Assembly: GCA_021806135.1 (NCBI GenBank)
Contig: JAJZYB010000003.1
Coordinates: forward strand, 28,797-92,796
Direction of reading: 5' to 3'
DNA from: Thermoplasmata archaeon
Lineage (GTDB): Archaea; Thermoplasmatota; Thermoplasmata; Lutacidiplasmatales; UBA184
DNA: 64,000 bases
Each line of letters starts with the position of its first letter. Position 1 is the first letter of the stretch. A program made the translations under genes and the position numbers. Shown here piece after piece: positions 59,602 to 59,750 of the stretch. The notes under the pieces were generated by a model. That model was not told the origin of the DNA. It did not search any database and saw nothing but the letters and a program-made list of their open reading frames with translations.

Positions 59602-59609
59602 CTTAAATG
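59602..59609 (+). promoter_or_regulatory. TATA-box-like element upstream of tRNA-Ser
   Basis: CTTAAATG about 26-33 nt upstream of tRNA position 1. Confidence 0.6.
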
Positions 59610-59634: not shown

Positions 59635-59750
59635 GCGGGGATGGCCCAGCCTGGTACGGCGCAGGATTGCTAATCCTGTGGTGCTTGCACCTCGGGGGTT
59701 CAAAGGCGCCGCGGAACCGCTCCGCGGGGCGGGATTTCCCCCTCCCCGCG
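59635..59750 (+). tRNA. tRNA-Ser(GCT) interrupted by a ~32-nt intron in the T-loop
   Basis: Acceptor GCGGGGA/TCCCCGC, T8, D-arm GCCCAGCCTGGTACGGC, anticodon arm CAGGA-TTGCTAA-TCCTG, long variable arm GGTGC-TT-GCACC, T-stem GGGGG/CCCCC with TTCAAA[59705-59736]T loop, discriminator G. All stems pair only if ~32 nt is removed from the T-loop. Confidence 0.88.

Follow-up and report, generated by a model that had tools for sequence, protein, structure and literature searches.

The tRNA-Ser(GCT) gene of this Thermoplasmata genome is very probably a working, single-copy gene that carries a protein-spliced archaeal intron between tRNA positions 59 and 60, that is, within the T-loop. The gene occupies positions 59635–59750 on the forward strand of the window, by which we mean the whole stretch of 64,000 nucleotides that was analysed (G+C content, 70%). 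Read base by base, it is a class II tRNA-Ser(GCT) with the acceptor stem GCGGGGA/TCCCCGC and discriminator G, the anticodon arm CAGGA-TTGCTAA-TCCTG with anticodon GCT, the variable arm GGTGC/GCACC and the T-stem GGGGG/CCCCC. Its intron is one member of a T-loop intron set that extends over the whole family to which the genome belongs.

Structure of the gene, the intron boundary and the predicted splicing motif

Deletion of the 32-nt intron (59705–59736) leaves an 84-nt tRNA that is called tRNA-Ser(gct) by ARAGORN, and the same product is given by intronless orthologues. These results bear out the original prediction, in which a T-loop intron had been proposed for a tRNA-Ser(GCT) of what looked like a euryarchaeal or Thermoplasmatota-type genome, together with a perfect class II tRNA (acceptor, anticodon, variable and T stems; loop TTCAAAT) upon removal of this very segment, its boundary being uncertain by 1 nt. 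Intronless orthologues read GGGGGTTCAAATCCCCC at the junction, corresponding to a mature loop TTCAAAT, and this junction (TTCAAA-TCCCCC) matches the predicted spliced product letter for letter. Since the empty site is thus seen directly, the 1-nt ambiguity disappears and the intron can be assigned to 59/60. The features of the gene are listed in Table 1.

Table 1. Features of the tRNA-Ser(GCT) gene and of its predicted bulge-helix-bulge (BHB) motif, in window coordinates
Feature	Positions	Strand	Remarks
TATA-like element CTTAAAT	59602–59608	+	some 30 nt ahead of the 5' end of the tRNA
tRNA-Ser(GCT) exon 1, positions 1–59	59635–59704	+	acceptor 5' strand to T-stem 5' strand, plus TTCAAA
T-stem 5' strand GGGGG	59694–59698	+	outer helix h of the BHB
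U54–A57	59699–59702	+	exon strand of central helix H
5' bulge A58 A59 ^ G1	59703–59705	+	predicted 5' splice site after 59704; boundary from intronless orthologues
32-nt intron at 59/60	59705–59736	+	missing in orthologues of G005, G015, G020 and G024
Intron hairpin 5' strand	59706–59714	+	inner helix h'
Intron hairpin 3' strand	59722–59730	+	inner helix h'
GGGA	59731–59734	+	intron strand of H; pairs with U54–C56, G faces A57
3' bulge U U ^ U60	59735–59737	+	predicted 3' splice site after 59736
tRNA-Ser(GCT) exon 2	59737–59750	+	U60, T-stem 3' strand, acceptor 3' strand, discriminator G

A pattern of 49 bases taken from the gene's 5' half matched 85 contig stretches, nearly all labelled as Thermoplasmata MAGs and including Candidatus Lutacidiplasma silvani AcS3-62, which is placed by NCBI in the Thermoplasmatota, order Candidatus Lutacidiplasmatales; from this we infer that the family of the window's genome is the Lutacidiplasma family. 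Most genomes of the same family contain a full-length match, intron included, and exon 1 is the same or nearly the same among family members. Within genus g4, the intron is present in G010 and absent from G005, G015, G020 and G024, where the T-loop reads TTCAAAT, and in other families of the class the Ser(GCT) gene is intronless in five genomes. Comparison of the 80 distinct intron-bearing orthologues reveals that the exon junction is constant and the intron position kept, while the intron sequences diverge.

A single fixed register fits the whole initial set of nine T-loop introns from this genome, and the same register fits those of at least nine tRNAs other than Ser(GCT) here and of many in relatives. 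It comprises two 3-nt bulges around a central helix, with an exon helix on the outer side and an intron helix on the inner side: helix h is the T-stem, helix H is formed by positions 54–57 and intron positions -3 to -6, the bulges are 58-59^1 and -2,-1^60, and helix h' begins at intron position 2. The hairpin that had been described within the intron, CCGCGG/CCGCGG, is present and proves longer than described (GCgCCGCGG/CCGCGGgGC, with one G.G mismatch). Over the 80 Ser introns, 8.1 of the 9 positions of h' are paired, compared with 3.5 in shuffled introns (z about 30), and the corresponding values for eight other tRNAs of this genome are 8.4 and 3.6. In an ungapped alignment of 40 introns, changes on both sides are observed for all eight h' pairs, with a covariation score of 0.322 as against 0.139 for shuffled sequences (reached in 0 of 500 shuffles), which falls to 0.06–0.13 when the register is slid. 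The pairs of H at positions 54–56 are always formed in this alignment and vary on one side only, the exon being invariant. RNAfold leaves H open in the minimum-energy structure and forms h and h'; likewise RNAalifold, applied to the Ser introns, recovers h and the greater part of h' and misses H, a short helix lying between bulges. The assignment of H is therefore based on conservation and not on energy. Taken with the fixed register, the pairing and the covariation place the BHB-compatible fold asked for by the original prediction exactly at the junction, and an intron kept in the same place in 80 orthologues, with a hairpin in register and two-sided changes, is far beyond chance.

Helix H of the Ser(GCT) gene consists of three base pairs (U-A, U.G and C-G) and an A57.G mismatch; the junction in the window is a relaxed BHB, the strict form with a four-base-pair H being excluded by this count. 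Once transcribed, the gene would fold into a BHB composed of the T-stem (h), of U54–C56 paired to the intron's 3' end (H) and of the intronic hairpin (h'). EndA would then cut within both 3-nt bulges and RtcB, a ligase encoded in the genome, would join A59 to U60, that is, GGGGGTTCAAA to TCCCCC, to give the T-loop TTCAAAT.

T-loop introns in the genome and its relatives

Sub-threshold matches and custom covariance models together yielded no fewer than ten T-loop introns at 59/60 for this genome, all in different tRNAs: Ser(GCT), Ser(GGA), Gly(TCC), Gln(CTG), Arg(TCT), Arg(TCG), Asp(GTC), Ala(GGC), Lys(TTT) and His(GTG). In relatives, further ones were found in Ser(CGA), Glu(CTC), Asn(GTT), Gly(GCC) and Leu(TAG). 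The genome also has D-loop introns, as well as canonical 37/38 introns in the Tyr, Met, Leu(TAA) and Trp tRNAs. Several individual genes of this kind may be mentioned. The tRNA-Lys(TTT) gene L033 (G000:C21, about 74688–74840) contains two non-canonical introns, one in the region of the D-arm and one of 41 nt in the T-loop, the latter with a perfect UUCG/CGAA central helix. Apparent D-loop introns with approximate boundaries are seen in tRNA-Arg(GCG) (L032, G000:C57:2654–2726, minus strand) and tRNA-Leu(TAG) (L036, G000:C27:13240–13307), and the canonical 37/38 intron of tRNA-Trp(CCA) (L038, G000:C33:4345–4416 and upstream, minus strand) is long and may include a box C/D guide RNA.

Of the three covariance models, R1 was built mostly from Ser introns and was too narrow, and R2 and R3 were built wider. 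R2 gave 5–13 matches per genome in 37 family genomes. When 250 genomes of the class were scanned with R3, 4–13 matches were found in each of the 45 listed family members, and outside the family matches occurred in 82 of 205 genomes, usually one or two per genome with a maximum of five. A draw of 194 genomes from the phylum produced single matches in six genomes outside the class, three of which were read; two correspond to T-loop-intron tRNAs and the third is without clear identity. A restriction of T-loop introns to the family was rejected, as weak matches outside it turned out to be real. For some outgroup tRNAs with two introns the anticodon calls of ARAGORN are unreliable (L285, called Trp, reads as Arg(CCG)), and only T-arm features were used. 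In G038, from a sister family of the same order, the T-loop introns are only 13–14 nt long with a UUCA/UGAA helix (L292, L294 and L296–L299), and the tRNA concerned often has an anticodon-loop intron as well.

Comparison of intron identities gave no signal of recent copying between tRNAs: the mean identity is 0.58 between tRNAs within a genome and equally 0.58 between different tRNAs of different genera, and it reaches 0.73 for the same tRNA within a genus. The introns thus differ from the transposed ones of Thermoproteales type, in which similar introns are found in different tRNAs of a genome.

The T-loop introns of other Thermoplasmata families mostly have the full four-base-pair H, whereas those of the family mostly have A57.G. 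A Watson-Crick partner faces position 57 in 37 of 40 introns outside the family, namely 14/15 in a set obtained mainly with R2, which does not model this pair, and 23/25 with R3, which does model it and is biased towards paired cases. Inside the family, such a partner is present in only 11 of 142 introns and A57.G in 125, these counts including many orthologues and being non-independent; as A57 usually faces G, the fourth pair of H has been lost in the family. Among family introns, C stands opposite G57 in 6 of 8 cases and opposite A57 in 2 of 134 (Fisher p = 7e-8; orthologues again included). The contrast could be read as involving no change in enzyme specificity, the family introns happening to lie in A57 tRNAs and the fourth pair never having been needed by Thermoplasmata EndA. 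It would fit this reading that the introns outside the family are mostly in G57 tRNAs, that two or three of them also have A57.G, and that a single evolutionary transition is seen; on the other hand, the contrast persists when only A57 introns are compared, A-U being found in 12/15 of them outside and 5/134 inside the family. We regard the reading as possible, if on the doubtful side.

The splicing endonuclease

The EndA of this genome is encoded by one ORF of 373 residues (L071:1444–2565, minus strand) in which PF02778 and PF01974 each match twice. With two N-domain/C-domain repeats and a single catalytic triad, all on the same polypeptide, it is by its sequence an enzyme of the alpha'2 type. 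It aligns along residues 26–292 of the alpha'2 EndA from Archaeoglobus fulgidus, and the best PDB match by sequence is the Methanopyrus kandleri entry 5X89. No separate gene for an EndA beta subunit was found, a search of the genome with PF01974 to E = 1 giving the one ORF, and of 61 relatives, the 59 that gave a match likewise showed no second EndA ORF. A broad-specificity enzyme had been expected for introns of this kind; this expectation failed, as the only EndA is the fused alpha'2-type one without a crenarchaeal loop (CSL). Alignment at the CSL site reveals no insert after GYYGE or GYGSR, where the Aeropyrum pernix enzyme has its loop; at the level of the primary structure, and as judged at the CSL position, the lysine-bearing loop of broad-specificity enzymes is absent. 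The alpha'2 enzymes of A. fulgidus (305 residues) and Thermoplasma acidophilum (289 residues) have the same two repeats and likewise lack the crenarchaeal loop insert. They differ from the present one in length, in the basic residue that the family has fixed between its catalytic Tyr and His, and in that the present enzyme serves a genome rich in relaxed T-loop introns.

This residue emerged from a comparison that sought residues constant in 16 family EndAs and rare in 15 from other Thermoplasmata; R/K313, A306, S233, R238, E240 and Q346 are invariant across the family, with other residues at these sites in the rest of the class. R/K313, flanked by the presumed active-site residues Tyr311 and His319, is found in 16/16 family enzymes and 0/15 of the others, and appears the most suggestive of these positions. 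It can be taken as a lead only, because one evolutionary transition is involved and because A. fulgidus has basic residues just after its Tyr. One may speculate that the family possesses a lineage-specific, co-evolved splicing variant, in which an alpha'2-type EndA without CSL or ASL would cut a BHB with a conserved A57.G, perhaps aided by R/K313, and would thereby have let T-loop introns become fixed in many tRNAs; we consider this rather unlikely as it stands.

The alpha'2 enzymes have been described as narrow, only the (alpha beta)2 and epsilon2 forms removing relaxed introns efficiently (PMC6379350). Together with the fact that a shortened H is the rule in the family, this could suggest removal of the intron by something other than EndA and RtcB, such as self-splicing or a nuclease, as yet unknown, that tolerates the shortened helix. 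We judge this very unlikely, as a BHB geometry with 3-nt bulges is the signature of EndA, a group I or group II ribozyme would not fit into some 30 nt, and no Rfam family matched at the locus. Moreover, BHL-like motifs are reportedly cut by homodimeric enzymes (PMC8707768), so that a relaxed H would not lie beyond this class. Splicing by EndA and RtcB is retained as the probable route, and the EndA of the family would accept the shortened H.

Copy number, detection and comparison with known systems

The unspliced Ser(GCT) gene is not called by ARAGORN and gives nothing at the Rfam gathering threshold; it appears as a sub-threshold RF00005 match of 24.8 bits (C16:88431–88485). Because ARAGORN and Rfam at its default threshold miss such genes, Thermoplasmata MAGs of this group can seem to lack some tRNAs. 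tRNAscan-SE 2.0 includes models for non-canonical introns and may recover many of them (PMC8450103). In the tRNA set of G000 (L001–L040 and L192), the expected tRNAs Thr(GGT), Pro(TGG), Pro(GGG), Asn(GTT) and Gly(GCC) are missing; they may lie on missing contigs or be even more disrupted.

The original prediction had made the existence of another intact tRNA-Ser(GCT) a point to be settled, and none was found when the genome, a 1.85-Mb draft that is 93.75% complete, was searched with RF00005 and at the DNA level. An intact extra copy on a missing contig is just conceivable, although the entire family shows the same Ser(GCT) pattern. AGC codons are used in the genes near Ser(GCT) and in EndA. 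The neighbours of the tRNA gene are a 3-hydroxyacyl-CoA dehydrogenase gene on one side and a small OB-fold/thiolase gene pair on the other. TATA-like elements were found upstream of 8/12 tRNA genes with non-canonical introns and 7/28 other tRNA genes of this genome, compared with 0.6% of background stretches. That the insertion killed the gene, leaving a pseudogene or representing a chance event while another tRNA reads the serine AGC/AGU codons, might be argued from the failure of tRNA finders and the draft state of the genome but is extremely improbable, given that 80 distinct orthologues have conserved exons with every stem intact, that the position and fold of the insertion are kept despite sequence change, that no other Ser(GCT) was found, and that ten different tRNAs of the genome share the design.

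The kind of element, that is, the 59/60 position and the splicing chemistry, is known. Position 59/60 is listed as a non-canonical site mainly in Crenarchaeota and Nanoarchaeota, notably Thermoproteales, while euryarchaea whose EndA is of the alpha4 or alpha2 form are said to bear only a few tRNA introns, which are single and canonically placed (PMC4090602); non-canonical introns are mentioned for three thermophilic euryarchaeal methanogens (PMC3218864). The T-arm introns of Crenarchaeota and Nanoarchaeota resemble those described here in their T-loop 59/60 site, their shortness, the BHB-type junction and the presence of further introns elsewhere in the genome. They belong to other phyla and are associated with an (alpha beta)2 enzyme with the crenarchaeal loop instead of a fused alpha'2-type one, whereas here A57.G is the rule and recent copying between tRNAs is not seen. 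Canonical 37/38 introns of euryarchaea share the BHB and the EndA/RtcB pathway; the present introns differ from them in the T-loop site, in the use of the T-stem as helix h and in the many tRNAs affected. The Asgard Atabeyarchaeia and Freyarchaeia are likewise soil archaea outside the Thermoproteales with many non-canonical introns, but theirs occur in various places, in 92–95% of tRNA genes (PMC11291895), whereas here 59/60 dominates among the non-canonical sites. The introns go unmentioned in the genome paper of the order (PMC9287336) and in a later survey of the phylum (PMC12220078), and no description of this lineage, this scale or the relaxed motif with an alpha'2-type enzyme was found in the open-access literature searched. 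What is new is the lineage, the scale, and the occurrence of a relaxed motif together with an enzyme of a class regarded as narrow.

If the co-evolved splicing variant were true, it would add another way, independently evolved, of relaxing substrate specificity. A large clade that combines an alpha'2-type enzyme with many relaxed T-loop introns stands beside sister clades in which this intron has its strict form, and these clades constitute a natural experiment on the joint evolution of EndA specificity and intron spread.
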